A stretch of 64,000 nucleotides of DNA, taken from the NCBI GenBank assembly GCA_947652115.1, contig OX393563.1, positions 26,686,867-26,750,866 of the forward strand, in the 5' to 3' direction. Both the position numbers and the translations under genes were made by a program. This DNA is from Blastomussa wellsi (taxonomy: Eukaryota; Cnidaria; Anthozoa; Scleractinia; Plerogyridae). Each line of letters starts with the position of its first letter. Position 1 is the stretch's first letter. The notes under the pieces were generated by a model that was given only the letters and a program-made list of their open reading frames with translations, made no database searches and was not told where the DNA came from. Of the stretch, positions 3,001-64,000 are shown in pieces.

Positions 3001-6000
3001 GCTGAGAAATGACACGATTTTAAAAGTTGGCCAAAATGGCCAATTTCATAGGGGGGACCATAGGAAATTTTTCAAAAACGGCCGATCTTTTTGCTCGACT
3101 TTGCAAGGCTGTAAAATTGAAACTACTTGTTCGATTTTAACCTAATTGGTATCGATGGACTCGGCAACTATCCTAGATTTTTTCTTGTGTGAAGAAACGC
3201 TTGAAAAGATCTCAAATAGCTGAGAAATAACACGATTTTTAAAAGTCGCCAAAATGGCTATTTTTTCACTTTTTTCCAAGGGGGGACCATAGGAAATTTT
3301 TCAAAAAATTTAAACTTGTCCGATTCTAGTCTAATTGCTATGGATGGACTTAGAAGCCATCGTAGTTTTCATCTGAGCAAAAAACCGCTTGAAAAAAGCT
3401 CAATTGGCTGAGAAATGACACGATTTTAAAAGTTGGCCAAAATGGCCAATTTCATAGGGGGGACCATAGGAAATTTTTCAAAAACGGCCGATCTTTTTGC
3501 TCGACTTTGCAAGGCTGTAAAATTGAAACTACTTGTTCGATTTTAACCTAATTGGTATCGATGGACTCGGCAACTATCCTAGATTTTTTCTTGTGTGAAG
3601 AAACGCTTGAAAAGATCTCAAATAGCTGAGAAATAACACGATTTTTAAAAGTCGCCAAAATGGCTATTTTTTCACTTTTTTCCAAGGGGGGACCATAGGA
3701 AATTTTTCAAAAAATTTAAACTTGTCCGATTCTAGTCTAATTGCTATGGATGGACTTAGAAGCCATCGTAGTTTTCATCTGAGCAAAAAACCGCTTGAAA
3801 AAAGCTCAATTGGCTGAGAAATGACACGATTTTAAAAGTTGGCCAAAATGGCCAATTTCATAGGGGGGACCATAGGAAATTTTTCAAAAACGGCCGATCT
3901 TTTTGCTCGACTTTGCAAGGCTGTAAAATTGAAACTACTTGTTCGATTTTAACCTAATTGGTATCGATGGACTCGGCAACTATCCTAGATTTTTTCTTGT
4001 GTGAAGAAACGCTTGAAAAGATCTCAAATAGCTGAGAAATAACACGATTTTTAAAAGTCGCCAAAATGGCTATTTTTTCACTTTTTTCCAAGGGGGGACC
4101 ATAGGAAATTTTTCAAAAAATTTAAACTTGTCCGATTCTAGTCTAATTGCTATGGATGGACTTAGAAGCCATCGTAGTTTTCATCTGAGCAAAAAACCGC
4201 TTGAAAAAAGCTCAATTGGCTGAGAAATGACACGATTTTAAAAGTTGGCCAAAATGGCCAATTTCATAGGGGGGACCATAGGAAATTTTTCAAAAACGGC
4301 CGATCTTTTTGCTCGACTTTGCAAGGCTGTAAAATTGAAACTACTTGTTCGATTTTAACCTAATTGGTATCGATGGACTCGGCAACTATCCTAGATTTTT
4401 TCTTGTGTGAAGAAACGCTTGAAAAGATCTCAAATAGCTGAGAAATAACACGATTTTTAAAAGTCGCCAAAATGGCTATTTTTTCACTTTTTTCCAAGGG
4501 GGGACCATAGGAAATTTTTCAAAAAATTTAAACTTGTCCGATTCTAGTCTAATTGCTATGGATGGACTTAGAAGCCATCGTAGTTTTCATCTGAGCAAAA
4601 AACCGCTTGAAAAAAGCTCAATTGGCTGAGAAATGACACGATTTTAAAAGTTGGCCAAAATGGCCAATTTCATAGGGGGGACCATAGGAAATTTTTCAAA
4701 AACGGCCGATCTTTTTGCTCGACTTTGCAAGGCTGTAAAATTGAAACTACTTGTTCGATTTTAACCTAATTGGTATCGATGGACTCGGCAACTATCCTAG
4801 ATTTTTTCTTGTGTGAAGAAACGCTTGAAAAGATCTCAAATAGCTGAGAAATAACACGATTTTTAAAAGTCGCCAAAATGGCTATTTTTTCACTTTTTTC
4901 CAAGGGGGGACCATAGGAAATTTTTCAAAAAATTTAAACTTGTCCGATTCTAGTCTAATTGCTATGGATGGACTTAGAAGCCATCGTAGTTTTCATCTGA
5001 GCAAAAAACCGCTTGAAAAAAGCTCAATTGGCTGAGAAATGACACGATTTTAAAAGTTGGCCAAAATGGCCAATTTCATAGGGGGGACCATAGGAAATTT
5101 TTCAAAAACGGCCGATCTTTTTGCTCGACTTTGCAAGGCTGTAAAATTGAAACTACTTGTTCGATTTTAACCTAATTGGTATCGATGGACTCGGCAACTA
5201 TCCTAGATTTTTTCTTGTGTGAAGAAACGCTTGAAAAGATCTCAAATAGCTGAGAAATAACACGATTTTTAAAAGTCGCCAAAATGGCTATTTTTTCACT
5301 TTTTTCCAAGGGGGGACCATAGGAAATTTTTCAAAAAATTTAAACTTGTCCGATTCTAGTCTAATTGCTATGGATGGACTTAGAAGCCATCGTAGTTTTC
5401 ATCTGAGCAAAAAACCGCTTGAAAAAAGCTCAATTGGCTGAGAAATGACACGATTTTAAAAGTTGGCCAAAATGGCCAATTTCATAGGGGGGACCATAGG
5501 AAATTTTTCAAAAACGGCCGATCTTTTTGCTCGACTTTGCAAGGCTGTAAAATTGAAACTACTTGTTCGATTTTAACCTAATTGGTATCGATGGACTCGG
5601 CAACTATCCTAGATTTTTTCTTGTGTGAAGAAACGCTTGAAAAGATCTCAAATAGCTGAGAAATAACACGATTTTTAAAAGTCGCCAAAATGGCTATTTT
5701 TTCACTTTTTTCCAAGGGGGGACCATAGGAAATTTTTCAAAAAATTTAAACTTGTCCGATTCTAGTCTAATTGCTATGGATGGACTTAGAAGCCATCGTA
5801 GTTTTCATCTGAGCAAAAAACCGCTTGAAAAAAGCTCAATTGGCTGAGAAATGACACGATTTTAAAAGTTGGCCAAAATGGCCAATTTCATAGGGGGGAC
5901 CATAGGAAATTTTTCAAAAACGGCCGATCTTTTTGCTCGACTTTGCAAGGCTGTAAAATTGAAACTACTTGTTCGATTTTAACCTAATTGGTATCGATGG

Positions 6001-7360
6001 ACTCGGCAACTATCCTAGATTTTTTCTTGTGTGAAGAAACGCTTGAAAAGATCTCAAATAGCTGAGAAATAACACGATTTTTAAAAGTCGCCAAAATGGC
6101 TATTTTTTCACTTTTTTCCAAGGGGGGACCATAGGAAATTTTTCAAAAAATTTAAACTTGTCCGATTCTAGTCTAATTGCTATGGATGGACTTAGAAGCC
6201 ATCGTAGTTTTCATCTGAGCAAAAAACCGCTTGAAAAAAGCTCAATTGGCTGAGAAATGACACGATTTTAAAAGTTGGCCAAAATGGCCAATTTCATAGG
6301 GGGGACCATAGGAAATTTTTCAAAAACGGCCGATCTTTTTGCTCGACTTTGCAAGGCTGTAAAATTGAAACTACTTGTTCGATTTTAACCTAATTGGTAT
6401 CGATGGACTCGGCAACTATCCTAGATTTTTTCTTGTGTGAAGAAACGCTTGAAAAGATCTCAAATAGCTGAGAAATAACACGATTTTTAAAAGTCGCCAA
6501 AATGGCTATTTTTTCACTTTTTTCCAAGGGGGGACCATAGGAAATTTTTCAAAAAATTTAAACTTGTCCGATTCTAGTCTAATTGCTATGGATGGACTTA
6601 GAAGCCATCGTAGTTTTCATCTGAGCAAAAAACCGCTTGAAAAAAGCTCAATTGGCTGAGAAATGACACGATTTTAAAAGTTGGCCAAAATGGCCAATTT
6701 CATAGGGGGGACCATAGGAAATTTTTCAAAAACGGCCGATCTTTTTGCTCGACTTTGCAAGGCTGTAAAATTGAAACTACTTGTTCGATTTTAACCTAAT
6801 TGGTATCGATGGACTCGGCAACTATCCTAGATTTTTTCTTGTGTGAAGAAACGCTTGAAAAGATCTCAAATAGCTGAGAAATAACACGATTTTTAAAAGT
6901 CGCCAAAATGGCTATTTTTTCACTTTTTTCCAAGGGGGGACCATAGGAAATTTTTCAAAAAATTTAAACTTGTCCGATTCTAGTCTAATTGCTATGGATG
7001 GACTTAGAAGCCATCGTAGTTTTCATCTGAGCAAAAAACCGCTTGAAAAAAGCTCAATTGGCTGAGAAATGACACGATTTTAAAAGTTGGCCAAAATGGC
7101 CAATTTCATAGGGGGGACCATAGGAAATTTTTCAAAAACGGCCGATCTTTTTGCTCGACTTTGCAAGGCTGTAAAATTGAAACTACTTGTTCGATTTTAA
7201 CCTAATTGGTATCGATGGACTCGGCAACTATCCTAGATTTTTTCTTGTGTGAAGAAACGCTTGAAAAGATCTCAAATAGCTGAGAAATAACACGATTTTT
7301 AAAAGTCGCCAAAATGGCTATTTTTTCACTTTTTTCCAAGGGGGGACCATAGGAAATTTT
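1..7360. repeat. 406-bp dimeric satellite array (about 18 copies)
   Basis: The same sequence recurs at 406-bp intervals (for example the GCCAAAATGG motif at 406, 812 and 1218) from the window start to about 7360. The unit is two diverged halves, 187 bp and 219 bp. Both start with AAGT-GGCCAAAATGG-like sequence, share GGGGGGACCATAGGAAATTT, and end in a GAAATNACACGATTTT-like stretch. The longer half has about 32 extra bases, GC-rich at the start. Copies are almost identical: I noticed one substitution (T to A at 2366) and one A fewer in the first copy. No long open frame or known gene is present. The array continues to the left of the window. Confidence 0.96.
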
Positions 7361-8569
7361 TTTTTTAAACTTCTTCCTGAGCTTGAGACCATGCATAGAT
7401 TTAGGACGCGGTCGAATTGTCTGTATTTATTAGATGCCATATCATGACTGTTGCATTAAGAAAAACTTGAGTCTGCTCAACTTGCGGGAATGTTTTGATT
7501 GAGCGGCAGGGCATACAACTCCCCTCAAATTCCAACTTTTTGACCCAGCATGTCATTCCGGAAACAAAACACTATTTCTCTTATGAAATAGCTTTTTGTT
7601 GCCGTTGTTAGCAAGTCTCGATCTCCAGATAACGATCGATTTGAAATTCGACAACTCCCGCTAAACTGCAATTGATCTCTAGAATTATTTATTCTGCCTT
7701 CTATAGGAAATTTCCTGGAGGACATCATTAAGTCCAATGAAGTTGAAAGTCTAACGATTTGATAGTTATGGGTCGGCTATTATCTCGCCTTAGCAAAGTT
7801 CGAACTGCTTGACTCCAGTGCACTCCGACTCGTTCCGTCGTGCGAGGCAAGAAAATGAAGTGCTTGCTTTAGAAGGCAAAGGGTCTTTCGTCACATCAAA
7901 TACGACCAGCAACCAGACTTATTGCGTGATTTAAAAGACGTCATATCGATATTTGGCTTGAACTTGACTGTGGCGAAAGACAAAGGGGGGGGAGGGGGGG
8001 CTAATCGTACAAAAGACTCTTGGTAGTTGAAACAGGATAAGGAAAGCCTGGAAGATAAAGAACACGAGAATTGAATAAATATTCTGATAAATCAATAGTA
8101 TAGTAGTATCAATAGTATTGTACCGAAACTTGAACTGGCTGAGCTGCGGCCGGTCTTCTGCGACAACTGGATGGTTGACCAACGAACAAGAAGCTTCGAA
8201 GAACAAAAATGGCCGACAAAACAACACTAACCGAAAATAACGAAACGAGAACAAAGGACAAAGGACCCTAAACCAAAAAAATTGCAGGGCCTCCGGCCAT
8301 ACACTGGTTAGGTCAATGAGCGACAATGGCCAAGACTTGTGGGATGTGCAGTTTGACAGGCTTCAAACAATTTAACGGAGGCTTAAGAATCCCTGAATTT
8401 GAGTTATTTTTAAGGTCTAGATTCTTGCGAAACATTAATCCTACCTAATGAAATTTGAAGTTGTCTGTTTTTAACCCATTTTAACTGTTCTGACAGAGTA
8501 CGCATTCTCAGTCACAACCCCTAATTTGCAAACTCAACACACCGACTTTTTATGCTAATATCCCAAGGG

Positions 8570-10020: not shown

Positions 10021-13000
10021 AATAATAATAATAATAATAATAATGGTTTATTGACATTCCACAAAAATAGGCTCTTCTATGCCAATATATATCTACACTA
10101 ATTTAATGATTAAGAAATTAAGTTTACAATATATTGATGAAAATAATTAATTGAATAAATAAACAAATAAATAATAAAAACGATAGCTATTTACATTTAC
10201 AGTCTTGAATTTACTTTATCATTAAAAAAACGTTTGGCATTACGCTTAAAGACAGCGAACTCCTTTGCCTCCCTCGTTGCAGTCGGTAGTGAGTTGAAAA
10301 TATTTGAGGCATTATGCCTGAAAGTGTCTGGATAGTGAACAGTACTTAGCTTAAAGTCACTACTAGATCTTAAAGTTCTTCCAGGAATGTACTGTCGAAG
10401 TTGGAGGTGCGTAGGCCAATTTGAATGGTGGACGGCCTTATAGGCTAAACTTGCGAGATGGAAATCACGCCTCTCGGAGATAGGTAGCCAGCCTAGCTTG
10501 AGTACATCTTCTAAATTGGCGTATTTCTTCAAAACAAAACCTGCGGCAGCTAGTTGCACCCTTTGCAGGCGTGCAAGGAGATAGTCCGGTGCAGGATAGG
10601 TGACTACATCATTAAAGTCTATCTTGGACAAAACTAGAGTCTCGGCTAGTAACTTCCTAACACGGAAAGGAGCTAGGTTTTTAAGTTTCCTAAGTACAGA
10701 CAGAGTAGAATAACAGGAGGAGATTTTACTGTTAAAGTCATTATGCCACTTAAGGTTTTGCTGAACTTCAGTGCCCAGGAGACGCGTAGTTTGTACCCTC
10801 TCGAGAGGCTGTCCATTGACAGTGAGTAGAACTTGGTGTTCATCAAGGTTGTGGTGACGGGCCATCTGGGCAGTTGAGAAGAGCATGGTTTTCGTCTTCT
10901 TGGGATTTAGAGCAAGATTACAGTCGCTCGACCACGACGAGAGGCGATCTAGGGCAAGCTGAAGGCGTTTTTCACATTCACTGATGTCGCGTGGTTTGGC
11001 ATGAGCATAAAACGTGGTGTCATCGGCGTATTGGTGACATGTAGCAGGGCTCAGGTGCTCAGCGAGGTCATTAACGTAAAGATTGAATAATACGGGACCT
11101 AACACTGATCCCTGAGGCACACCGAAGCACACTTCCAAAGGTCTTGAGGCCTTGTCGTCAATTTGCACGAACTGTTTGCGTCCGGTTAAGTAACTAGTGA
11201 CCCACATAAGGAAAGACTTGGAGAAACCGAGGCGATGTAACTTCTTAAGGGCGACTTCATATGCGACAGTGTCAAATGCCTTGGAGAAATCGGCTAGAAC
11301 AGCCAAGGTTACTTCTCCACGCTTCATGGCTTTTATTATATCGTCTTTAATTGCTAGAAGGCTAGTGGTTGTGCTATGTCCTTTCCTATAGGCGCTGACA
11401 GTGTCTCCTAAGATACCGTGAGGACCACTTGAAACAAAGCCACTCATTTGGTCCAATACTAGGCGTTCATAAACTTTTGAAAGGACGGGTAGAATGGAGA
11501 TTGGACGTAAGTCGTTCCTGTCCTTTATGTCGGCCTGCTTGGGAATGGGGCTTATACGAGCAACTTTCCAGGCTGATGGAAAAAACTTCAGCGAGATGTA
11601 GGTGTTCAAAATATGGGTTAGTGGCGACGCCAGATGGTCAGCGGCGTATTTGATGAACTTCACCGGAATCCCGTCCGGACCGCAGGAGCAATCTGACCTT
11701 AATTTCTTGAGTGTCGTAAGGACTTGGAGACAAGTGACCGGCTTCAACACAAAAGCGCCAGGCTCATCCTCTGGTAGTGCTTGAATGAGGTTCGAGATAC
11801 TATCAGCAGAGGTGGGCGTGGCTCCGGTGACACGTTCTGCAGTAGAGGCGAAGTGCGTGTTGAGCGCATCAGGGTCGAACCTTAGAGGCTGTGGGTTCGG
11901 GTGGAGTATTCGATGGATTATTTTCCATACTTCCTTAGGCTTCGAAGACGAAAGCGCTTTGTTGTAAAACTCGCGTTTTGCTTTGCCAATCATAGTCTTC
12001 AGCTGGTTTCGTTTCTCCCTGAAAGAATTCCATGTCGAATCGCTCTTGTCTTTACGTGCCTGGGTGTACATACTGCGACAGTCCTGTTGAAGCTTTTGGA
12101 TGTCGAGTTGCTTTAGCCAAGGAGCAGGAGGTCGTGTAACCTTAGTGCGCTTTAACGGAGCGTGCCGATCAATGCAATCACGTAATAATTTATTGAGTAT
12201 TTCGAGCTGCATCTCGGGGTCATCGGTGGAATAGACGACGCTAAGAGGGAGTTGTTTGAGATCTTCGGTGAAAGCGTCTTCATCAAAGTTGCGCTCATCA
12301 CGTATGTACTTGTATCTCGGTGTAAAGCGCGTAACGCGAACGTTCAGGCACACGTATGGTGCGTCATGGTCGCTTATATTCGGACACGGGAGAACGTTAC
12401 AGTACGACACTTGCTTTGGCATGTTCGTGATCATGTGATCAATGAGTGTCTCAGAAAGCAGGGTTGTGCGCGTTGCCTTGGTTACAAGTTGAGTTAAATT
12501 TAAAGACTTCAAGACGTCCATATACTTTTGCACAAAGCGCTCCGATGGGCGGAAGAGATCCACGTTGACATCTCCTGTGACAAGCAACATTCCATCCCAA
12601 GATACAGACAAATCAGATAGAAGTGACTCCAAAGTGTCTAGCCAATCAGAATATGTCATAACAGCACCAGATCTATAGACCACTCCCAACAGCAGGTTAC
12701 TGTGCTTGTTGCGGCCTTTGATTTCCAGCCAGAGATGTTCCATTGCCGGATAACGCATTTCTATGTCAGTTCTTCTTTTGTATTCGATCGACTCCTTGAG
12801 ATAGACACCAACACCGCCGCCCTTCATTTTATCTCTGTTGTTGAAAGCCTGAACATACCCAGGTATAGTCACATGCTGTAACCGGAGTGGGTTATCCTTT
12901 AACCAAGTTTCACTCATGGTAATGATGTCAAGAGAATAGCGGTTGACAGTATAAAGCAGACTGTCGAAAGTTGAAGTCATGCATTGAGTATTAATATGCA

Positions 13001-13832
13001 TAATCTTGAGTTGTTGTTCTCTTTTATTCAGAGCGCATAAGTGAGGGTCATCATCCACGAGGTTCCCGTCAGACAGATCAGAGGTATCTAGAGATCGTTG
13101 ACCGAAGAAAGGCAATTCGGAGAGCATACAATTTGCGCAAGTCCAGGTGCAGGGAGAAACGGAGCGAATTGTTTTAATTTGGAAGCCAGAGACCGATGCA
13201 CAGCGTGCATGAGTTGAGTCTTTACACGTCTCACAAACAAACCGCTTCTGATTACGCTTGACTGCCTTCTCACAGACAGGGCATACAGGTGCTGGACCAC
13301 GACGAGTAGACAAAGACGTTTTGTTCTTAGGAGTGGCACGAGGAATTTGATCGCTGGTATTGTTTAAAGGACCGGGATTTAGTTTGAAGATTAAATCACC
13401 CTCAAGGAGGCAATGGAATGTAGCAGTGCTGTTCGTATAATACGCACACGGGCGTTTGGCACGTTTGATCTTTGATCCGAGATTCACACATACCAGACGA
13501 TCCACAAATGAACCCAAGTAACACAATCCGGCGTTCCAGAGGGGCCAGGAGGACAATAGCCTGTGAGTGCTGGAATCCAAGTCATTGTTCGCGAAGTGAA
13601 CTTGATTTGCAAAGTCGGAGCGAGTCAACCAAAGCGAGGAAGCAAAACTCTCGTTTCTCAGAGACGCAAAGGCGAAACCAGGCACACGAAGACACCCGAA
13701 GCCGCAACAGCACCCTAGAGGCACATCAGCGTGGTTCTCCTTGACAATAATGCAGTTTGGAAGGAGAAAAGTGACGACGAATAGAGCGCTCCAAGAAGCA
13801 TGGCATGCCATAATTATGTATTCATGTGAATA
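10021..13832 (-). mobile_element. Non-LTR retrotransposon (CR1/L2-like LINE) inserted in the satellite
   Basis: The satellite unit is interrupted exactly here: CAATGGCCAA stops at about 10022 and GGGATGTGCAG resumes at 13833. The element reads on the minus strand and ends in an (ATT)n tail (10021-10044 on the + strand) preceded by an AATAAA-like signal. It carries one long ORF with endonuclease and reverse transcriptase. Only about 21 bases precede the first internal ATG, so an upstream ORF1 or 5' UTR may be missing through 5' truncation. No target-site duplication is present; instead 7 target bases (GACTTGT) are missing. Unit arithmetic agrees: 5491 minus 3812 is 1679, which is 7 less than 1686. 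The CR1/L2-like assignment rests on domain order and the microsatellite tail. Confidence 0.95.
10197..13811 (-). CDS. LINE ORF: PHD-like finger, endonuclease, reverse transcriptase
   Basis: Encodes the replication protein of the non-LTR element: an APE-like endonuclease that nicks target DNA and a reverse transcriptase that primes on the nick. The frame is open for 1221 codons, but the first 17 come from flanking satellite, so I start at the first internal Met (MACHASW), giving 1204 residues. In the 1221-residue numbering, a Cys/His-rich PHD-like finger lies at 194-245 (CPVC...CETC...H..C...CANC). The endonuclease is at about 285-510, with SETWL, GDVNVD (430-435) and SDHD (497-500). The reverse transcriptase is at about 700-1000, with DFSKAFD (858-864), PQGSVLGP (916-923) and YADD (945-948). 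The C-terminal tail has NSLPTATREA. All catalytic motifs are intact with no stop or frameshift, so the copy is young. No ORF1 is visible. Confidence 0.95.
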   Translation of the reverse strand: MACHASWSALFVVTFLLPNCIIVKENHADVPLGCCCGFGCLRVPGFAFASLRNESFASSLWLTRSDFANQVHFANNDLDSSTHRLLSSWPLWNAGLCYLGSFVDRLVCVNLGSKIKRAKRPCAYYTNSTATFHCLLEGDLIFKLNPGPLNNTSDQIPRATPKNKTSLSTRRGPAPVCPVCEKAVKRNQKRFVCETCKDSTHARCASVSGFQIKTIRSVSPCTWTCANCMLSELPFFGQRSLDTSDLSDGNLVDDDPHLCALNKREQQLKIMHINTQCMTSTFDSLLYTVNRYSLDIITMSETWLKDNPLRLQHVTIPGYVQAFNNRDKMKGGGVGVYLKESIEYKRRTDIEMRYPAMEHLWLEIKGRNKHSNLLLGVVYRSGAVMTYSDWLDTLESLLSDLSVSWDGMLLVTGDVNVDLFRPSERFVQKYMDVLKSLNLTQLVTKATRTTLLSETLIDHMITNMPKQVSYCNVLPCPNISDHDAPYVCLNVRVTRFTPRYKYIRDERNFDEDAFTEDLKQLPLSVVYSTDDPEMQLEILNKLLRDCIDRHAPLKRTKVTRPPAPWLKQLDIQKLQQDCRSMYTQARKDKSDSTWNSFREKRNQLKTMIGKAKREFYNKALSSSKPKEVWKIIHRILHPNPQPLRFDPDALNTHFASTAERVTGATPTSADSISNLIQALPEDEPGAFVLKPVTCLQVLTTLKKLRSDCSCGPDGIPVKFIKYAADHLASPLTHILNTYISLKFFPSAWKVARISPIPKQADIKDRNDLRPISILPVLSKVYERLVLDQMSGFVSSGPHGILGDTVSAYRKGHSTTTSLLAIKDDIIKAMKRGEVTLAVLADFSKAFDTVAYEVALKKLHRLGFSKSFLMWVTSYLTGRKQFVQIDDKASRPLEVCFGVPQGSVLGPVLFNLYVNDLAEHLSPATCHQYADDTTFYAHAKPRDISECEKRLQLALDRLSSWSSDCNLALNPKKTKTMLFSTAQMARHHNLDEHQVLLTVNGQPLERVQTTRLLGTEVQQNLKWHNDFNSKISSCYSTLSVLRKLKNLAPFRVRKLLAETLVLSKIDFNDVVTYPAPDYLLARLQRVQLAAAGFVLKKYANLEDVLKLGWLPISERRDFHLASLAYKAVHHSNWPTHLQLRQYIPGRTLRSSSDFKLSTVHYPDTFRHNASNIFNSLPTATREAKEFAVFKRNAKRFFNDKVNSRL

Positions 13833-16800
13833 GGGATGTGCAGTTTGACAGGCTTCAAACAATTTAACGGCGGCTTAAGAATCCCTGAATTTGAGTTATT
13901 TTTAAGGTCTAGATTCTTGCGAAACATTAATCCTACCTAATGAAATTTGAAGTTGTCTGTTTTTAACCCATTTTAACTGTTCTGACAGAGTACGCATTCT
14001 CAGTCACAACCCCTAATTTGCAAACTCAACACACCGACTTTTTATGCTAATATCCCAAGGGATTACAGAGGTGGCCTAGCGGTCATCGTGGCGCGCAACG
14101 AGGACAGAAACGTCACCAGAGGTCGAGGGTTCGAGTCTCGCTCATAGGGATTATTCTACAACTGGCTTGGGAGCCGAATAATTCCTCCCCGGAGTGGAGA
14201 TTTGGATCTAAGACTAAGGAATTACTCTCGATCAGGCTTGGGGGCCGGGTAATTCCTCCCCGGAATCCGATTTTTATTTTTTAAAACCTTTTTTTGGTAA
14301 TTTTTGGCGTTATTTCCTTTTTTTTCTTTTTTGCTGCACAGCCTTAACTGGAACAATATCTATATTTTTTCAAAATTAGGCGAATTTTACATTTTCTTTC
14401 CTTCATTTTGGTAACGAAAACCGCTGTTTGGTAAAATAAAGATACACTTTATTCAAAAGAAATGCATTTTGTTGCATTTGCAGAAGAATTTGATGACCAA
14501 ATAGAAGTTCTCTCGTTTCTTTCTTCCTGAGCTTGAGACCATGCATAGATTTAGGACGCGGTCGAATTGTCTGTATTTATTAGATGCCATATCATGACTG
14601 TTGCATTAAGAAAAACTTGAGTCTGCTCAACTTGCGGGAAATGTTTTGATTGAGCGGCAGGGCATACAACTCCCTCAAATTCCAACTTTTTGACCCAGCA
14701 TGTCATTCCGGAAACAAAACACTATTTCTTTTATGAAATAGCTTTTTGTTGCCGTTGTTAGCAAGTCTCGATCTCCAGATAACGATCGATTTGAAATTCG
14801 ACAACTCCCGCTAAACTGCAATTGATCTCTAGAATTATTTATTCTGCCTTCTAAAGGAAATTTGCTGGAGGACATCATTAAGTCCAATGAAGTTGAAAGT
14901 CTAACGATTTGATAGTTATGGGTCGGCTATTATCTCGCCTTAGCAAAGTTCGAACTGCTTGACTCCAGTGCACTCCGACTCGTTCCGTCGTGCGAGGCAA
15001 GAAAATGAAGTGCTTGCTTTAGAAGGCAAAGGGTCTTTCGTCACATCAAATACGACCAGCAACCAGACTTATTGCGTGATTTGAAAGACGTCATATCGAT
15101 ATTTGGCTTGAACTTGACTGTGGCGAAAGACAAAGGGGGGGAGGGGGGGCTAATCGTACAAAAGACTCTTGGTAGTTGAAACAGGATAAGGAAAGCCTGG
15201 AAGATAAAGAACACGAGAATTGAATAAATATTCTGATAAATCAATAGTATAGTAGTATCAATAGTATTGTACCGAAACTTAAACTGGCTGAGCTGCGGCC
15301 GGTCTTCTGCGACAACTGGATGGTTGACCAACGAACAAGAAGCTTCGAAGAACAGAAATGGCCGACAAAACAACACTAACCGAAAATAACGAAACGAGAA
15401 CAAAGGACAAAGGACCCTAAACCAAAAAAATTGCAGGGCCTCCGGCCATACTCTGGTTAGGTCAATGAGCGATGATCTGAGTCAAATGTGTTTTGATCTC
15501 GGACAATGGCCAAGACTTGTGGGATGTGCAGTTTGACAGGCTTCAAACAATTTAACGGAGGCTTAAGAATCCCTGAATTTGAGTTATTTTTAAGGTCTAG
15601 ATTCTTGCGAAACATTAATCCTACCTAATGAAATTTGAAGTTGTCTGTTTTTAACCCATTTTAACTGTTCTGACAGAGTACGCATTCTCAGTCACAACCC
15701 CTAATTTGCAAACTCAACACACCGACTTTTTATGCTAATATCCCAAGGGATTACAGAGGTGGCCTAGCGGTCATCGTGGCGCGCAACGAGGACAGAAACG
15801 TCACCAGAGGTCGAGGGTTCGAGTCTCGCTCGTAGGGATTATTCTACAACTGGCTTGGGGGCCGAATAATTCCTCCCCGGAGTGGAGATTTGGATCTAAG
15901 ACTAAGGAATTACTCTCGATCAGGCTTGGGGGCCGGGTAATTCCTCCCCGGAATCCGATTTTTATTTTTTAAAACCTTTTTTTGGTAATTTTTGGCGTTA
16001 TTTCCTTTTTTTTTTTTTGCTGCACAGCCTTAACTGGAACGATATCTATATTTTTTCAAAATTAGGCGAATTTTACATTTTCTTTCCTTCATTTTGGTAA
16101 CGAAAACCGCTGTTTGGTAAAATAAAGATACACTTTATTCAAAAGAAATGCATTTTGTTGCATTTGCAGAAGAATTTGATGACCAAATAGAAGTTCTCTC
16201 GTTTCTTTCTTCCTGAGCTTGAGACCATGCATAGATTTAGGACGCGGTCGAATTGTCTGTATTTATTAGATGCCATATCATGACTGTTGCATTAAGAAAA
16301 ACTTGAGTCTGCTCAACTTGCGGGAATGTTTTGATTGAGCGGCAGGGCATACAACTGCCCTCAAATTCCAACTTTTTGACCCAGCATGTCATTCCGGAAA
16401 CAAAACACTATTTCTTTTATGAAACAGCTTTTTGTTGCCGTTGTTAGCAAGTCTCGATCTCCAGATAACGATCGATTTGAAATTCGACAACTCCCGCTAA
16501 ACTGCAATTGATCTCTAGAATTATTTATTCTGCCTTCTAAAGGAAATTTGCTGGAGGACATCATTAAGTCCAATGAAGTTGAAAGTCTAACGATTTGATA
16601 GTTATGGGTCGGCTATTATCTCGCCTTAGCAAAGTTCGAACTGCTTGACTCCAGTGCACTCCGACTCGTTCCGTCGTGCGAGGCAAGAAAATGAAGTGCT
16701 TGCTTTAGAAGGCAAAGGGTCTTTCGTCACATCAAATACGACCAGCAACCAGACTTATTGCGTGATTTGAAAGACGTCATATCGATATTCGGCTTGAACT

Positions 16801-37800: not shown

Positions 37801-38043
37801 TTTTTAAAACCTTTTTTTGGTAATTTTTGGCGTTATTTCCTTTTTTTTTTTTTTTGCTGCACAGCCTTAACTGGAACAATATCTATATTTTTTCAAAATT
37901 AGGCGAATTTTACATTTTCTTTCCTTCATTTTGGTAACGAAAACCGCTGTTTGGTAAAATAAAGATACACTTTATTCAAAAGAAATGCATTTTGTTGCAT
38001 TTGCAGAAGAATTTGATGACCAAATAGAAGTTCTCTCGTTTCT

Positions 38044-41157: not shown

Positions 41158-41898
41158 ATGGCCGAGGAAAGTGAAAAAGTTGTTGCTGCACCCTCGAAGA
41201 AGCCGAAAAACCCAAAGTACACTGTGATGGTAGAAGAAGCTGTTAAAATTCTTGATGATAAAGGTGGCTCCTCTCGACAGGCCATAATAAGGTACCTCAA
41301 GGGAAAATACCTCGTTGGCGACAACGCTATAAAGTTTCGGCTGATCAATCTTGCGTTGGTAAAGAGTGTTACTATCGGGCGCCTCGTGCATACCAAAGGA
41401 GTGGGCGCTTCGGGCTCATTCAAGCTTTCGAAGGAGGTAAAAGAAGAGACGAAGAAAGAGGAGAAAAGGAAATTAAAAGCTTTGAAAGACAAGGAAAACG
41501 TAAAACCCGAGAGTGACGGCAAAGCGCGCAAATCCAAACCGAAGAAATCGAAAAAATCTAAGAAAGAACAAGAGGAAGGCAGCGAAGAGAAGGCGAAAAA
41601 GAAAAAGAATGCGACCGCAAAGAAACCTAAAGACGGCAAGATGAAGACTTCAAAGGATTCCGGAGAGAAAAAAGCTAATTCAAAAGCGAAAAAGTCTAAA
41701 GACGAAGAGAACGGCGAAGAACGCGTGGAAGAAAAGAAGAGTAAAAAGCCCGCGGCGAAAGCCAAGACGAGTAAAAAATCTTCTCCTGGCAAGAAAGCAA
41801 CCGCCGGAAAGAGCAAAAACTCGACAAAAGTTCCGAAACCGAAGAAAACTGCTGAAGCAAAACCCAAGGCGAGAAAACAACTTGCTGAGAAAAACTAG
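41158..41898 (+). CDS. Linker histone H1
   Basis: Binds the nucleosome and linker DNA and compacts chromatin in the nucleus. The product has 246 residues and no intron. A short N-terminal tail is followed by a winged-helix globular domain at about 19-92 (PKYTVMVEEAVKILDDKGGSSRQAI... ending ASGSFKLSK) and then a lysine-rich C-terminal tail with many KK, AKK and KKSKK runs and one SPGKK motif. The start is the first ATG after the TATA box. No canonical histone 3' stem-loop is visible within about 200 bases after the stop, so the message may be polyadenylated, as in replacement-type H1 genes. A 279-codon open frame on the opposite strand is a shadow of the Lys/Glu-rich codons. The gene is alone here; no core histone genes flank it. 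Confidence 0.92.
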   Translation: MAEESEKVVAAPSKKPKNPKYTVMVEEAVKILDDKGGSSRQAIIRYLKGKYLVGDNAIKFRLINLALVKSVTIGRLVHTKGVGASGSFKLSKEVKEETKKEEKRKLKALKDKENVKPESDGKARKSKPKKSKKSKKEQEEGSEEKAKKKKNATAKKPKDGKMKTSKDSGEKKANSKAKKSKDEENGEERVEEKKSKKPAAKAKTSKKSSPGKKATAGKSKNSTKVPKPKKTAEAKPKARKQLAEKN

Positions 41899-43626: not shown

Positions 43627-44190
43627 CTACATACTTGAGATTGCGACCTTAAACTCATCTAATGAATTAGGAATTAAAGCTAAAGGTAAGCTGTTCCAGG
43701 TTCTTGTGGCTCTAGGGTAAAAAGAATATTTATAAGTGTCATTTAGTGTTGCAAGTTGGCAAAATGGTGCACAATTAGGAAGCCTTGAAGCTCTTGCATT
43801 ACAAACTACTTCAGGTGGTAAAGCAATACCAACAAGCCCTGTGTAGATCTTATAAAACATAAACACTTGATTAGTCAGTCCAAGGAGTCCCACCCCAGGG
43901 CTTTGATTAATGGAGAGACATGAGTGAAACGCGAATAATCATTGTGAACAAATCTGGCTGCGCGACGTTGGACCACTTCTATCTTGTTGATGTTACACTG
44001 CGTATGTGGGTTCCATACACAACTGGCATACTCCAGTTTAGGGCGTACAAGTGTAAGATATACTGTACTCTTGACCTCCGGAGTACAACCAGATAAGATT
44101 CGCCTGAGAAGACCAAGGGTTGAATTCGCCTTGTTACAAATAATATCACGCTGATTTCCGTTTCGTAAACGGTCTGTGCCCTTTTTAACG
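43627..44190 (-). pseudogene. 5'-truncated, frameshifted LINE reverse transcriptase C-terminus
   Basis: Two overlapping minus-strand frames (about 44190-43875 and 43893-43627) together give the region downstream of the reverse transcriptase catalytic core: ANSTLGLLRRIL, VRPKLEYASCVWNP, VVQRRAARFV, then a frameshift near 43880, then FYPRATRTWNSLP. This order is typical of the C-terminus of CR1/Jockey-like non-LTR elements. The catalytic YADD part is absent. The sequence differs from the intact element at 10021-13832, so it is a different family. The first codons of the upper frame come from the neighbouring MITE. Confidence 0.85.
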
Positions 44191-44202
44191 GTCGATGCCA
44201 TA

Positions 44203-44401
44203 ATTGACCTCTTTAGCTTCGTATGTAAATTGGCCATTTCAAATCATGTGATGCTCTCCAGAGAATTTGTCCTTTGTTTATCTGCAAATTATTCATTTAT
44301 TTTCACGTGGATTTTTTTAAATTTGAAAGCAATAATTCTCAAGGGTAACATCACGTGGTCTGAAATGGGACAACAAACAAACGAAGCTAAAGAGGTCTAT
44401 T
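44203..44401. mobile_element. Foldback MITE abutting the LINE fragment
   Basis: The left end GACCTCTTTAGCTTCGT and the right end ACGAAGCTAAAGAGGTC are perfect inverted copies. Complementarity continues, with mismatches, over about 55 bases (CCATTTCA / TGAAATGG; GTGATG / CATCAC). The total is about 200 bp with an AT-rich centre. It lies directly against the broken 5' end of the LINE fragment. Confidence 0.8.
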
Positions 44402-45150: not shown

Positions 45151-45352
45151 CTTTCTTAAGAACATAATTTGGTTTTGTCAACTGGGTTGATAATGTCAAT
45201 TGGCCACAATAAAGAGATTCAAGAGCTGACGTTTCGAGCGTTAGCCCGCTCCGACGAAGGGCTAACGCTCGAAACGTCAGCTCTTGAATCTCTTTACGGT
45301 GGCCAGTTGACATTATCAACCCAGTTGATAAAACCAAATTATATTGTTATAC

Positions 45353-45397
<45 letters not shown>

Positions 45398-45412
45398 CCT
45401 TTCTTAAGAACA
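45151..45412. mobile_element. Retrozyme/Penelope-like inverted dimer with 14-bp target-site duplication
   Basis: CTTTCTTAAGAACA occurs at 45151-45164 and again at 45399-45412, flanking a 234-bp insert (45165-45398). The insert is an almost perfect inverted repeat. The right arm (45247-45398) is a full unit, reverse-oriented relative to the solo unit at 62997-63150. The left arm (45165-45247) is a shorter inverted copy. On the + strand at 45248-45281 a hammerhead-like series is seen: GCT, CCGACGA, GGGC-TAAC-GCTC, GAAA, CGTC, AGC. Two deviations from the hammerhead consensus exist: C for the conserved U in CUGANGA, and an extra A before stem II. No protein coding. Confidence 0.75.
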
Positions 45413-57430: not shown

Positions 57431-58914
57431 AGACCACACAGGAGGGAAAAAACACTCATCTAATGTAAGGTAAGATGATTTTTATTTTCATAGGTTACAG
57501 AAACAATCGTTATTTTCTCCATACAAATCCTTATATTTCGAAGGTTACGTAACGGTGCCGACGCTTACATTTCGAGCTTGGGGAACCTGTGGATGGACAC
57601 CAAAATCTGTTGACTGAGATCGGGAACCTGGGATTAATTCTCTTTCGTGGGGGTCAACTGTCTGTTGGTGTTCGAAAACTAATTTACGAGGCTCCAGCGT
57701 CGGTAACCTGCGATTGGGCGTTCGACAAAATTATGATCGCAAATTTATTTATGGAGGAGGCAGTGCGCGGTCAAAATTGATAAGGATTGGGGTTTGGTTT
57801 GGCTAACTAGTATTGTGAAAGGAAGGATCAACATTATTTGAACATTATCGAATTATTTGACAAGAATCCAAAACGTTTGTGCTGGTTGTTTGAAGACTTG
57901 AGCAAATATTTTCCAAAAAGATGGCAGCAGATACTCTTTATCAATGCACACTGAACATGAACAGATAATTACGAAAAGAACCCCTTATTTGTGTTTCTTG
58001 GTACAGGTTGCTTTGTTTTTCAATGAACAAAATAGCGTCCGCCACCCGCCAGGAACCTTCTGGGGCACTTGAACTTTGATCATAACGCGATTCAAACTTG
58101 CTTTAAGCTTTTGATCACATTAAACTTAAAAAGAAATTAATACTGGGTACAAGCAAAGAAAAAAAAGGCATTCGTGTGTTCCGAATACATTCAGGAAAGC
58201 ACACCGCTGTTTGTGTGCCGTTTCCCGTAGCAACACAAGATGTGGCGACTTCCGGCGGATCGATGTGTAGAAGGATCTGTACGGCGAGAATTTATGCGTT
58301 TGACCGGTTCGCCGCTATTTTGTACAAACCACGGGAAGTTTTATTATTCCAAGCCGTGAATTCGATTTCTCCAAGTCACAAAGGTTAGTCAAGCTGTAAT
58401 ATAGGTTTTTCATAGCGTGTTCTAAGTGAAATTACTTGATGTTGTCAGCGCCATATTTGAACTGGTGTCGATCCCTTGTTTATCGTAGAACGCAGCTGCC
58501 TCTGTGAACTGAAAAATAGCATTCTGATCAACATTTTCATCTTTGCATTTTCAGCAAACAAAGAAGAATTAGCAAGAAAAATATGTACCTTTTATCTTGC
58601 CTTTTGAGGAATATTATTATCCATGATTATATTAATGCTGTTTCACGCCGATAATTTATGGAATGATATGCAAACCTGAGCTCAAACTCAATCGTCGCAC
58701 GAACTTGCTGTCTCAGGAAATTATTAATCTGGCACTTGAAGTGAATGGACTGCAAATTTTCTTCTCTCAAACCGGGACATGAACCAGAAAGGTTATTATA
58801 TCATCAACAGTTGACAAAAGCTGGCCAGAAAAGCAAACCTGAAAAGAACTTGTACAGTTGGAAATAGGGACGCACAGCAGTGGAAGATTTTAAAAGAGTT
58901 CTTCCCCGTTCCCG
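57431..58914. other. Upstream region of ABHD8, no gene recognised
   Basis: Short open frames at 57589-57780 and 58176-58388 show no known domain. The second ends at CACAAAG/GTTAGTC, a plausible splice donor, so it could lie in a 5' untranslated exon of ABHD8. I cannot confirm this. Confidence 0.35.
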
Positions 58915-61900
58915 ATGTGTGGGGCGTTTCGAGGACACAATCAAAACAAGATTTCCCCCATTACAGATCTATCATCTGAAAAGATTGAAATACGTAAAGG
59001 CCGTTGGCTGAGAATTATACACTACAAGCCTCGCTTGTCACGTTCTGATAGCGGATTTAGCCGCGAAGAAATTCAGTCAAATCGTTCTGAACATTCTGCG
59101 TCGTCCACCGTTTCTAGAACAAGTGATCCGGATTACAAGAGGATCGTTGTTATATTTTTCATTCACGGAGTTGGAGGGAGTGCTGATCTTTGGTACGAAC
59201 AACTGCTGTACTTTTGCAAGGCAGGATATGAGGTAGTGGCGCCCGATTTGCTGGGACACGGGCAAAGTTCCGCGCCGAACAATCCTGCAGATTATGAGTT
59301 TTCAGAGCTATCGTATGATTTAATCTATTTATTTGACCGCTATCATAAGAAGAGGAACGTTTTGGTTGGACATTCATATGGGTAAGTCTCTTCATTTCCT
59401 CAGACGTGCACATAGATAAAGTATTTACATGTAACATTCCTTTTCCGCTGTAAAAATTGACCCCGGGTAAACGTTGGGGTCATGGGGTAGGTATTTTTTT
59501 GGCCCTTTGGGCGTTACATTTTCAAGAGAAGCGACGTCACCCTAAATCTGTCTCCGGCTCCCTGATATAAAGTACCCTTGAAACAGACTAGTACATAGTC
59601 GCCATTTACGGGTTCAGGGCATGAGAGAAGGTCCCCAGGGGGGTACTCGAAGTATACATCATCACGGGGGGGGGGTGGGAAGGGGGGTCCGACGGACCTT
59701 CATATTGCAAACCCAAAAAATACAAAATTTTAGACCCAAAAAAATACCTGGCATCAAAATTTCCAACCCAAAAAAATACAAAAAAGTTTGTATGAATATT
59801 TTTCTGATCCACTGATCAGAAACATTTTTGTTTCTGATCAGCATCATTTCAATGTTGATATATTTCTTTCATTGCTCTCTTGGAGATCCACTGACCCCCA
59901 AAACGAAAAGCTCATTCGGGGATAAGACCCAAAAATACGCGTATTTTTTAAGACCAAAAAAAATACGTGACATCTCTTGACCCCAAAAAATACCAAGCGT
60001 GTAAATTTTCAACCCAAAAAAATGTGTCGCCCCCCCTCATGTATACTTCGAGTACCCCCCTGAGGAGAATATTTGATACCAGGGAAGACTGAGGGATGTG
60101 GGGTGTCATGGGACCTTGCGTACCTCAATCTTAACTAGTACCCAATCTACACCCTGCACGCCTCGATCTTCACTACTAGTATCCAATCTTCTCTTGTCCC
60201 CAGAACCCATAAATAGCGACTGCGTTCGAGTCTGCCCTTGAAAGTACTTGCAGTATTCATGAGCTTTCTCAACCAGTGTTCTGTGGGTCCATGGAAATCC
60301 ACTTCAAGGATGGTCACGGAATTCTGATTGGCAGGGGATTATTTTGAAGGAAAGAATTAGGCTAAAGAGGTGTGGGAGGTTCATACTAAACACCCTAGAA
60401 CTATCTTCCTGTATGCCTCTTTTTATTGTTTTCTATTGTTTTCTTGCAATAAGTATGCAATGCCCGTCATGTTTTATGACAGTATAATACATGGCTTAGG
60501 TTTCTTTATTTGTTAAATAAGAGGTTTTGACAGCATTCTAAAGTTTTCTGACCATTTTCCAAAGATTTCTAAAGACTCCCAATGTGTTGTCTGAAGATTT
60601 CCAAAACTTTCCAAAGTGTCTGAAGTTTGCCAAAGAATTGCAAGAAAGATCTGAACATGGTTTCACTATGCAACAACAAATGTAATTAAAGTTAAAGGGG
60701 ACAAATATGATATCAAAAATAAAGTCATTTATCATCACTGAAAGTAAAATTTTCATAATTTTATGTGTACTGTGTTTAGTAATGGTTTTTATTTCCCAGG
60801 GCTGGAAATGCTTGTAAAAATCATTGAGCAGCACTGTTTATATATATTTACTAGTATATAGTTATAACCAATCTGAGAGTAAACTTCATTTTATTGGTTA
60901 TCTGTTTGCAGGGCGTCATTTTGTGCAGTTATTGCATGTGAGCGTGCTCGACTAGTGTCCAAGATGGTTCTTATAGCTGGTGGAGGTCCTGTGCCGCTTG
61001 TGGGAGTTGGTTCTTGTGATGTGTTCTGCTTGCCATCACCATTGTTATCATGCATCAAGCCTGTGTTTTTGTCTGTTTATGAAAGGTTAGCTGTAAATAT
61101 TTAGCACTTATGAGGCCCTGTTAGGGAGGGTCTTTATGTTCCCCATCTGAATTTCAAACCTTTCCACGTCGCAATTTCGGAACGTTCACATGTCGCTGTC
61201 AGAATTTCATGTGAGCGGCTTTTCGTTTGTCGTCATTTCAGCTCCTTCATGTCACTGTTTCAGAGCCGTGTTGCCTGTCGGAATTTACCCTAACATGGCC
61301 TCACTTATGCGATATTCAAATAATTATTTGACTTCAATTCAGTTACTTACCTGCCAACTTTTTTCCGGGGCCAGGGGGTTCTCAAAGAGGAGACAACCTG
61401 TTTTTTTGCAGATGACAGAAATGGGAGTATCATAGATGTATGATTTCACTCAGTTTGTCTCTATTGTAAACAGAAGTCATTTTTCAAGCCCTGTATACAC
61501 CTTATTAATAAATGGCGGACGCGCAGTTAAAGCTTGGGCCGAGTACATGAAAACAAGGCTAGTGCGGGAACTCTTCGCGGGAAATAGAAAGGTTTGTATG
61601 GCAGATTTGCTATTTTTTAACTTTCATCTTTGTTTTTGGCAGTATTTAAAGGTTTATTGCTAAAAGCTTTACAGCACAGCTTACAGTGACTTGTCTTGAG
61701 ATCACATAGCGATTTTATTGCGGTTATTATCTGTCAGTGTATAGGAAAATGGTTTTGTCACCTTTGGTTTCCTTGGGTGAAGATGATATCCCTGGTGCTT
61801 CGTTTGGCACAAGAAAGCCAGCGGAACTAGTAAACGATGCCCTAAGATTCTGGCTAAAATGCCGTGGAGACAAATGCAAGGGATTGAAAACAAAAGCACA

Positions 61901-62996
61901 GCTATTGAAATGGCGAGTGGAGATGTGAGATCGCGGATGTTTACTATTTTGACCTAGCTGTAAACTGTAATATTTTTACATTCATCTTGGAGTCGTTTTC
62001 TTGGCGAGCTCCTTTTCCATGCGAACTTAGAAGGGATAGCACCAGTGTTCAGATACAGACGGCCGCCACTTATCTCCTTCCTCAAATTGCTTTCATTAAA
62101 ATGCAAGGAACACACTTCGGTCCACTTGGTAATTTGAAAGACACTTCCAACATCTCTTTGAATGGGGTGAATCCATTGTTTTCTTAACTCCTCTTCGGCT
62201 GGAAAGCTTAAGAAACTGATGATTTTGCCAACAGGCCCTTTCTCGCCTCTTTGAGGACGCCGAGGTACACAACAGTGTGCGAATTTGAAGCAATCCCTGA
62301 GAATAATCGTGATCTCAAGACAAGTCACTGTAAGCTGTGCTGTAAAGCTTTTAGTGATAAACCTTTAAATACTGCCAAAATAGAAGATAGCAAATCTGCG
62401 ATACAAAGCTTTCTATTTCCCGGGAAGAGTTGCCGCACTAGCCTCAGCCCAAGCTTTAACCGCGCGTCCGCCATTTATGAATAAGGTGTATTAAGCTGCA
62501 ATAATGTACCCGTAGTTCTTCTACATGTATTTGTCACTTGCCTTGTATAATTTAAATTTGCTGAATGTATATTTGTGTTCTTTTTACAGGAGAGCATACA
62601 ACAGTCAGAGGGCAAGATCAATGAAGAAGAAGGTCAAAGCTTTCAGTGCCTCTTCATTTGTGTTGAAAGCTGTAATGGCTGGACAGGTCAGTCAATCTCT
62701 GTCTTTTGGGCATAATTAATAATAATTAATAATTAATTAATGCAAGGCCTCAAGTTGTTGCCTAAATTTCATTTAACTATGTATGATTGTAAGTAGCCAG
62801 TTACTGGAAAAATTGTCCGTAGCCAGACATTTGACATAGATGAAGCAAAAGTTGTGAGCACCAAGGCCCTAACTGGTTGGCGGTCTGCAGATTTTTCGCC
62901 CACCTTTCCTTTCTTCTTGCTATCTACGACCCTGGTCAGACATGAAAAAGGTATCTTTTTAGCAGTCAGAAAAAGCTCAAGTCACACTCAGAATAG

Positions 62997-63041
<45 letters not shown>

Positions 63042-64000
63042 GTATGACAATATAATTTGGTTTTATCAACTGGGTTGATAATGTGAATTGGCCACCGTAA
63101 AGAGATTCAAGAGCTGACGTTTCGAGCGTTAGCCCTTCGTCGGAGCGAATCACTCAGAATAGCCTCCTTTGTGGACTTAATTAAAATTATTCTTCTATGT
63201 GCATACCTGGAGAGTAAAGTTTCTTTGCTTGTCATTTGAGTCAATGAGTCATAAGCCATGAGTCAATGAGTAAGTGAGTCAAATTTTAAATCACATTTAT
63301 TGATTTAAAAATAGTGTTGCCCTTACTAACAAATATAGGTTAACTGCAATCAAACTAACCACATTATAGCAAACCTAAGTGGAACTAACTGCAAGCAAGC
63401 TGGAGTGGAATTAACTGCATTGAAGCAAATCAGGGTAGAACTATCCACAGCAAAGTGGGGTGCTTCTAAGCTAATTTGCATGCAGGCAAACCATGACTCA
63501 CTAGATCATAACCTTTGTGTAAAAATCTCCTTGACTCATGCCTCATAGACAAATTTGACTCATAAAACATGGGACATCACATCCCTGTTCCCCCTCCCCC
63601 TTGGGCCTCAGTGCTCAAAATAACAAAAATTTAAGGCAAAAGTTGTGGAAATCATCATATTCCAATGGCAATACAAAGACAAGATTTAAAAAATATATTT
63701 TAATTAAAAATAATACATATTGTCTGCCTAGTGTGATTGCCTCTTGTCCTCCCCGCCCGCCCCCCCCCCCCCCCCCCTATCCAGCAGGTTAATTTAAAAA
63801 CGTTTGCTTCACGATATGAGATATGAGTAGAGTTTGGCAATGGTACAGTAAATCTTTAAATGAATGATGGACATCCTGATCAGTGTCGTAATCATGGCTT
63901 CTTTAACAGGTATGGGAAGAGGGTGATGAAAGCTACCATCAGGAGCTGATGGTTCCAGCGTTGTTGATTTATGGCGCTCAGGACAAATTTGTTACTCTTG
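58915..64000 (+). CDS. ABHD8: ABHD8-like alpha/beta hydrolase (first four exons; runs off the window)
   Basis: A serine hydrolase of the alpha/beta fold; the substrate of ABHD8 is not well established. Exons: 58915-59381, 60912-61085, 62590-62686 and 63910 onward (window edge). Joins are GT-AG and keep frame, giving 276 residues here. The start is the first ATG after an in-frame TAA 24 bases upstream. Visible: oxyanion-hole HGVGG (84-88), [10 protein letters not shown], nucleophile elbow GHSYG (152-156; the last Gly codon is split by intron 1), the IAGGGP stretch, [14 protein letters not shown], and GAQDKFV with the likely catalytic Asp271. The catalytic His must lie beyond the edge. [10 protein letters not shown] and [16 protein letters not shown] match ABHD8 rather than other ABHD families. 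The N-terminus before the hydrolase fold is low in known motifs. Confidence 0.94.
59636..60062. mobile_element. CAGGGG-ended MITE, copy C (ABHD8 intron 1)
   Basis: Perfect inverted ends of 24 bases beginning CAGGGGGGTACTCGAAGT and ending ACTTCGAGTACCCCCCTG. The body holds about seven spaced ACCCAAAAAAATAC words and a small hairpin (TTTCTGATC words near 59810-59840). The perfect ends make this the youngest-looking of the three copies. Same orientation as copy A. No coding frame. Confidence 0.85.
61737..61928 (+). pseudogene. SAP-like DNA-binding fragment in the foldback element
   Basis: Translation gives [20 protein letters not shown], then [24 protein letters not shown]. The pattern L-x-x-W/F-L-x2-RG-x4-G-x-K-x-L resembles SAP motifs seen in cnidarian transposon-linked proteins. 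It stops after 63 codons. Only a fragment of a longer ancestral protein can be supported. Confidence 0.5.
61954..62328 (-). pseudogene. THAP-domain fragment in the foldback element
   Basis: A 124-codon frame with a THAP-like finger, the DNA-binding domain of P-element-type transposases: CC at 19-20, SFLSFP (38-43), W52, CSLHF with C73 and H76, and the AIPSKF box (97-102). The second zinc Cys expected near residue 23-25 is missing (CCVPRR where a CxxxC pattern is usual), so zinc binding is probably lost. No catalytic part follows. The frame starts inside the right inverted arm. Confidence 0.65.
62985..63162 (-). mobile_element. Solo retrozyme/Penelope-like unit, 154 bp, 12-bp target-site duplication (ABHD8 intron 3)
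   Basis: CACTCAGAATAG at 62985-62996 and again at 63151-63162 flanks a 154-bp insert (62997-63150). The insert begins AGGGGGTAAGTTTC and ends TCGTCGGAGCGAAT on the + strand. On the minus strand, 63150 to 63105 gives a hammerhead-like order: ATTCGCT (stem I), CCGACGA (core), GGGC-TAAC-GCTC (stem II), GAAA, CGTC, then AGC...GAAT closing stem I with a TCTT bulge. It matches the right arm of the inverted dimer at 45165-45398 closely. No coding frame. Confidence 0.78.
63236..63500. repeat. Minisatellites (ATGAGTCA words, then about 30-bp units)
   Basis: ATGAGTCA-type words repeat at 63236-63290. From about 63340 an imperfect 30-base unit (AGTGGAACTAACTGCAAGCAAG-like) recurs three to four times. 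Noncoding intron sequence. Confidence 0.6.
63751..63779. repeat. Poly-C tract
   Basis: A C-rich run with about 18 consecutive C near 63761-63778, preceded by CCCCGCCCGCC. Likely length-variable. Confidence 0.85.

Follow-up and report, generated by a model that had tools for sequence, protein, structure and literature searches.

What kind of element left a 154-bp unit with a hammerhead-like RNA motif inside a perfect target-site duplication (TSD) at this locus, and does the motif set the ends of its copies? We analysed the window, i.e., the whole 64-kb stretch of DNA (64,000 nucleotides) around the unit. The perfect 12-bp duplication reported in the original prediction is present: CACTCAGAATAG occurs exactly twice in the whole 64-kb window, both strands considered, at 62985 and 63151, around 154 bp. 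The features of this first copy are as follows.

62985 to 62996, no strand: left copy of the target-site duplication, CACTCAGAATAG, from the sequence.
62997 to 63150, minus strand: copy 1, the 154-nt unit, read as the probable solo pseudo-LTR (pLTR), with its tail, of a Penelope-like element (PLE).
63053 to 63150, minus strand: proposed pLTR body, 98 nt, whose 3' limit CCAAATTA is the exact end of the inverted arm of copy 2; the ends of antisense translations are mixed.
62997 to 63052, minus strand: proposed tail, 56 nt, which both direct copies have and the inverted arm of copy 2 lacks; named by analogy with PMC3846280 (as excerpted) and PMC11167929.
63006 to 63019, minus strand: terminal stem-loop GTTTCTTTAGAAAC just 5' of the 3' end of the unit, from sequence and fold.
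63151 to 63162, no strand: right copy of the target-site duplication, CACTCAGAATAG, from the sequence.

Read on the minus strand, copy 1 starts at its 5' end with ATTCGCTCCGACGAAGGGC and finishes at its 3' end with ACTTACCCCCT, the proposed tail terminating in the stem-loop and ACCCCCT. Between positions 38001 and 64000 of the window, four exact direct repeats with a length of 12 bp or more are found at a spacing of 140–260 bp, two of which are the duplications of copies 1 and 2 and two of which are AT-rich; a first-order Markov null for 12-mer pairs gives a mean of 0.57 and a maximum of 3 in 60 resamples. The whole unit folds better than its shuffled versions (z = -2.92, 0 of 200 as good), into a structure that is not the hammerhead. 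Copy 1 sits in an apparent intron with splice-like signals near 62690 and 63909, and the upstream exon of the host gene (58894-59382) matches alpha/beta hydrolases; we take this gene to be ABHD8.

The remainder of the window is rich in repeats. Eighteen copies of a 406-bp unit (99% match) form a tandem array that runs from the window edge over positions 1-7361, and a long array with units of ~1.6–1.7 kb, in which the same minus-strand open frames recur, spans ~7900-37200. Inside the latter, an uninterrupted LINE-type retrotransposon frame of 1225 aa lies on the minus strand at 10200-13874, with a reverse transcriptase match at E 2e-32 and weak matches to an endonuclease and a PHD finger that fall short of their cut-offs. 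A linker histone gene with a long basic tail is found on the plus strand at 41158-41895 (Pfam E 5.9e-20); its two best named relatives are from the anthozoans Nematostella and Desmophyllum, and 17 matches score better than these. The unit may therefore reside in an anthozoan genome. Open frames on the minus strand at 43630-44243 are, by resemblance, presumably the C-terminal remnant of another LINE.

The hammerhead-like motif occupies the 5' end of the unit and has the following parts.

63105 to 63150, minus strand: minimal type I hammerhead-like motif, 46 nt.
63137 to 63143, minus strand: core strand CCGACGA, with C at position 4.
63124 to 63135, minus strand: stem-loop II, GGGC-UAAC-GCUC, with one extra A (63136) ahead of it.
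63116 to 63123, minus strand: GAAA followed by CGUC; stem III consists of the palindrome ACGU only, and cleavage is predicted after the C at 63116.

The predicted cleavage point follows standard hammerhead motif numbering. The canonical hammerhead core strand is CUGANGA. All elements occur in the minus-strand order originally described, namely ATTC-GCT, CCGACGA, the extra A, GGGC-UAAC-GCUC, GAAA, C-GUC and AGC-UCUU-GAAU, and the two deviations flagged at the same time, one changed core base and an extra A before stem II, are real, as is the reduction of stem III to the ACGU palindrome. The canonical CUGANGA...GAAA...UH core is thus absent: the order of the elements and stems I and II are present, with C4 and the inserted A in both window copies. 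A strict CTGANGA descriptor has no match in the 64-kb window, and a relaxed descriptor allowing any base at position 4 and one inserted base, loosened post hoc with the sequence already known, has two matches in 64 kb, both of them copies of this unit, where 40 Markov resamples give an expectation of 0.05. The suggested comparison with Rfam hammerhead models came back negative, with no match at gathering thresholds over the whole window and none at E <=10 over 62950-63200. As an isolated 46-nt RNA, the motif has a different hairpin as its minimum-energy fold (-11.2 kcal/mol, compared with -5.9 kcal/mol when paired as a hammerhead), so folding of the monomer alone as a hammerhead would be disfavoured.

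The Rfam result and the competing hairpin are what would be seen if the unit were a MITE or SINE with an accidental resemblance to a hammerhead. Chance, however, would supply the relaxed descriptor just 0.05 times per 64 kb. Terminal inverted repeats of at least 8 nt are also missing from copy 1, where the sole inverted pair of that length is internal (63063-63070 with 63074-63081). The window also holds a second copy, a composite at 45165-45398 that the original prediction did not mention.

45151 to 45164, no strand: left copy of the 14-bp target-site duplication, CTTTCTTAAGAACA, from the sequence.
45165 to 45247, minus strand: inverted arm, 83 nt, without the tail and the first 15 nt.
45247 to 45398, plus strand: direct arm, without the first 3 nt, with the same CCGACGA core at 45251-45257.
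45399 to 45412, no strand: right copy of the target-site duplication, CTTTCTTAAGAACA, from the sequence.

The direct arm is 98% identical to copy 1 over 152 bp, and its 5' end joins the inverted partial copy head-to-head, the composite having its own 14-bp duplication. The inverted arm ends exactly past CCAAATTA, at unit position 98, leaving the last 56 nt missing; the tail border is therefore clear in copy 2, where the direct arm has the tail and the inverted arm lacks it. The duplications of the two copies are unlike in sequence and in length (12 and 14 bp), a further point against a MITE or SINE.

The wider family was sampled through chance translations in a protein database rather than through DNA, with the open frame crossing copy 2 as query; this query is itself head-to-head and favours head-to-head matches. 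All 100 listed matches carry translations of the repeat, which, together with the second window copy, bears out the claim of a multi-copy family. By layout, 51 of the 100 are head-to-head (antisense then sense), 32 antisense only and 17 sense only, and the 51 head-to-head translations have 49 distinct junction peptides, pointing to many separate events. None of the 100 contains two sense or two antisense copies, a weak test of head-to-tail arrays because a sense frame running through an array would usually be interrupted by the stop codon in the tail. Of the 83 antisense arms, 40 are truncated by the ORF start and were set aside; among the others, an end within 2 codons of the body/tail border is seen in 16 of the 26 rows that are antisense only and in 4 of the 17 that are head-to-head. 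The body/tail border is thus weakly supported outside copy 2. The translations do not show that most inverted arms lack the tail. Three translations (P0196, P0136 and P0128) contain short repeated pieces of the hammerhead region, i.e., partial tandems of the 5' end, perhaps from template jumps. Core patterns, exact and degenerate, had no match in viral and genome contig collections, which may omit the window's own genome, and a protein search of viral contigs with P0141 gave 16 pattern matches, of which none was confirmed.

A search with the sense-frame peptide of the unit, padded so that longer proteins qualify, retrieved six proteins (P0221–P0226). In P0221, P0222 and P0223, the peptide lies downstream of a GIY-YIG endonuclease, past a shared SVYK..THNSS spacer; the endonuclease is called by Pfam above the cut-off in P0221 (E 1.8e-6) and P0222 (E 8.1e-5) and below it in P0223 (E 0.0021), which runs on into unrelated sequence. 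The unit is present without the endonuclease in P0224, P0225 and P0226. The GIY-YIG association thus holds in three of six proteins, i.e., in relatives of the unit and not beside the window's own copies. One antisense translation, P0177, continues past the hammerhead and is compatible with this spacer in four sense proteins: counted within the spacer alone, conflicts affect 11–16% of positions at the best offset, against medians of 33–36% and next-best values of 18–23%. The N-terminal stretch of P0221 is presumably Penelope reverse transcriptase-like; Pfam did not call a reverse transcriptase part in P0221, and comparison of P0221 with solved structures gave one chance-level match (E 0.7). With P0221–P0223 as queries, tblastn found no PLE coding sequence in the window and matched only at the two unit loci. 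The unit was seen on the downstream side of the endonuclease only and not ahead of a reverse transcriptase frame, and none of the six proteins shows a full PLE with pLTRs on both sides. The arrangement of a shorter pLTR head-to-head, with a short TSD, is found in copy 2, and 51 of the 100 translations show the layout. The link to Penelope-like elements in the original prediction is upheld by the unit following the GIY-YIG frame in P0221, P0222 and P0223.

This association also bears on the two readings of the unit that do without a Penelope-like element. For a MITE or SINE, a place downstream of a GIY-YIG frame would be unexpected, and PLEs are known hammerhead carriers (PMC11167929 and the accessible part of PMC7761336); in addition, the most variable sense codon of the motif falls on the stem I bulge (F 33, S 18, L 13, P 4). 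We consider an accidental resemblance in a MITE or SINE highly improbable. The second reading is a free-standing non-LTR retrozyme, whose hammerhead-processed circular RNA would be reverse-transcribed by another element's enzyme. Animal retrozymes are described, in the accessible parts of PMC7229834 and PMC7761336, with circRNAs of ~170–400 nt, repeats of ~150–300 bp and duplications of >4 bp, and in PMC7229834, likewise as excerpted, with head-to-tail tandem repeats. Measured against these partial accounts, our unit is similarly small, near the animal size range, and non-coding, has a type I hammerhead-like motif and duplications of >4 bp, and some of its copies lie without adjacent coding sequence; it differs in showing no tandem array at either of the two window loci (and in none of the 100 translations, weak as that test is), in its head-to-head copies and in the link to a GIY-YIG frame, and its stem III is nearly absent and its core non-canonical. 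A free-standing retrozyme is therefore an improbable explanation. Of the originally proposed small retrozyme-like family, retroposition, the TSD, the hammerhead-like motif and the multi-copy state stand, whereas its free-standing nature is less well supported, given that neither of the two loci is head-to-tail and given the GIY-YIG link.

Taken together, as judged from sequence, the unit is very probably a solo pLTR plus tail of a Penelope-like retroelement, one that would encode a GIY-YIG endonuclease and a reverse transcriptase. Its anatomy resembles that of Penelope elements in Adineta vaga. As excerpted, PMC3846280 describes for Pen2a_Av and Pen3a_Av solo pLTRs, direct pLTRs that can meet a shorter, inverted one head-to-head, and an optional tail extending one of the two, with TSDs of 8–10 bp in the quoted cases, some insertions without a TSD, and junction palindromes. 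Solo pLTR, shorter inverted head-to-head arm, junction palindromes and short TSD are common to both on this partial account, and the optional tail would be as well if its border holds beyond copy 2, whereas the Adineta pLTRs measure ~181–218 bp with TSDs of 8–10 bp and here the body is 98 nt with TSDs of 12 and 14 bp. The word "hammerhead" is absent from the text of PMC3846280, whereas the motif is present here.

A second point of comparison is PAc, a Poseidon-type PLE of Anolis carolinensis, whose tail is defined by the internal sites from which reverse transcription sets out (PMC11167929). The hammerhead at the pLTR and the GIY-YIG endonuclease are shared with PAc, and internal starts defining the tail would be shared as well if our reading is right. 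In PAc, however, stem II marks the beginning of the ORF, and a main reverse transcription start lies 111–118 bp into that frame (PMC11167929); its core was treated as a normal hammerhead (C3 and G8 were tested), whereas here C4 and the extra A are found. Hammerhead mutants of PAc left insertion in vitro unchanged, and cleavage by its hammerhead requires protein (PMC11167929).

For the solo pLTR plus tail, we propose the following course. A protein of the element would nick the target, and reverse transcription would begin internally, at the tail of the 5'-most pLTR of the transcript. Copying would run to the 5' end of the RNA, at the foot of stem I, producing the 154-bp stub, to which a shorter inverted copy could be added via a template jump or self-priming. 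The hammerhead would remain uncut in the template, so that the copy ends would not be set by cleavage. A cleaved template would be expected to give copies starting 35 nt further in, at AGCTCT. Of the 51 translations with head-to-head layout, 26 have a sense arm that extends to the foot of stem I, 2 have one that runs further upstream and 23 have one that stops short; copy 1 also begins at the foot of stem I. That copies often start there, and not at the cleavage site, favours uncleaved RNA as the template.

How far the unusual core is a property of the family can be read from the translations, in which one antisense codon covers core positions 3–5, arginine (CGG) standing for C4 and glutamine (CAG) for U4. 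Among 83 antisense translations, this codon reads R in 57, Q in 10, W in 4 and another residue in 12, some of which are junctions. A second anchor gives R 57, Q 8 and other 14 of 79 (W 4, L 3, S 3, and I, N, E and P one each), a third R 44, Q 7 and other 5 of 56, and the strictest R 38, Q 3 and other 5 of 46; the query carried R, a modest bias in all these counts. In copies reaching toward the endonuclease, the readout is R 8 and Q 2 of 10 (11 rows minus the loose match P0130, left out as being without upstream extension). Because Q and W are both expected from decay of a methylated CpG in CGG, C4 looks ancestral. The leucine that demands the extra A is kept in 79 of 83 antisense translations, this residue being part of the search anchor. 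Most retrieved copies share C4 and the extra A, which are therefore not damage to one copy. The original caution that this copy may be inactive was thus right about the oddities of the core, but they are no defect of this copy in particular.

Elsewhere in the motif, conservation was counted in 68 of 106 sense proteins. Between stem II and the end of AGC, each of the eight codons is retained in 56–66 of the 68 translations, most of these codons lying within the search anchor; the five codons ahead of stem II are retained in 39–56 of 68, a lower retention that is partly due to copies truncated there. The remaining core, GAAA and GUC included, is conserved in most translations. In the stems, the translations show conservation and not covariation, and the DNA copies are two and near-identical.

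These counts bring in a further possibility, compatible with the pLTR reading, that the hammerhead has lost its activity in this lineage and persists as a protein-binding RNA structure or a promoter component. It would account for C4 in 57 of 83 and the supported extra A in 79 of 83 translations and for copy ends that lie often at the stem I foot and not at the cleavage site, and cleavage is dispensable for insertion in vitro (PMC11167929). Conservation of the rest of the core, with GAAA and GUC, in most translations argues against it, as does a viroid hammerhead with U4C, which, in the accessible part of PMC3088659, has considerably lower activity in vitro and nevertheless supports infectivity. 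We regard loss of the hammerhead as a real possibility, though one we lean against. With C4 and almost no stem III, slow cleavage, or cleavage only as a dimer or with protein, would be expected, and by analogy with a viroid hammerhead that is weak in vitro yet infectious, the family may cleave slowly, only when helped, or not at all.

Cervera (2014) and Lunse (2017) reportedly described minimal type I hammerheads in PLEs. PLE-like minimal hammerhead motifs also occur in Acropora millepora, as excerpted from PMC7229834, and the accessible part of PMC7761336, a 2020 review, reports that minimal type I hammerheads act as dimers and calls the in vivo role of those in PLEs "still a mystery". On these partial accounts, the motif described here has in common with the minimal hammerheads of PLEs and Acropora millepora its type I form and a nearly absent stem III, whereas C4 and the extra A prevail here; the comparison covers the excerpted text of PMC7229834.

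PLE hammerheads are already known, and what is notable here is the core variant; no paper giving the CCGACGA-type core was noticed among the open-licence papers listed, and a 22-mer of the core had no match in published text. A Penelope lineage may have spread widely with C in place of the canonical U4 and an extra base at stem II, a proposal to which we give somewhat short of an even chance. If true, the hammerhead would have given up RNA cleavage for a role that is structural or switched by protein, and copies starting at the stem I foot would be evidence from the genome for an uncleaved RNA template. A changed core in most copies, together with a whole motif often kept at the 5' end of insertions, would make this family a natural test of the need for cleavage in transposition. 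The solo units fit the internal-initiation model drawn from one reptile element and would extend that model to another animal group.
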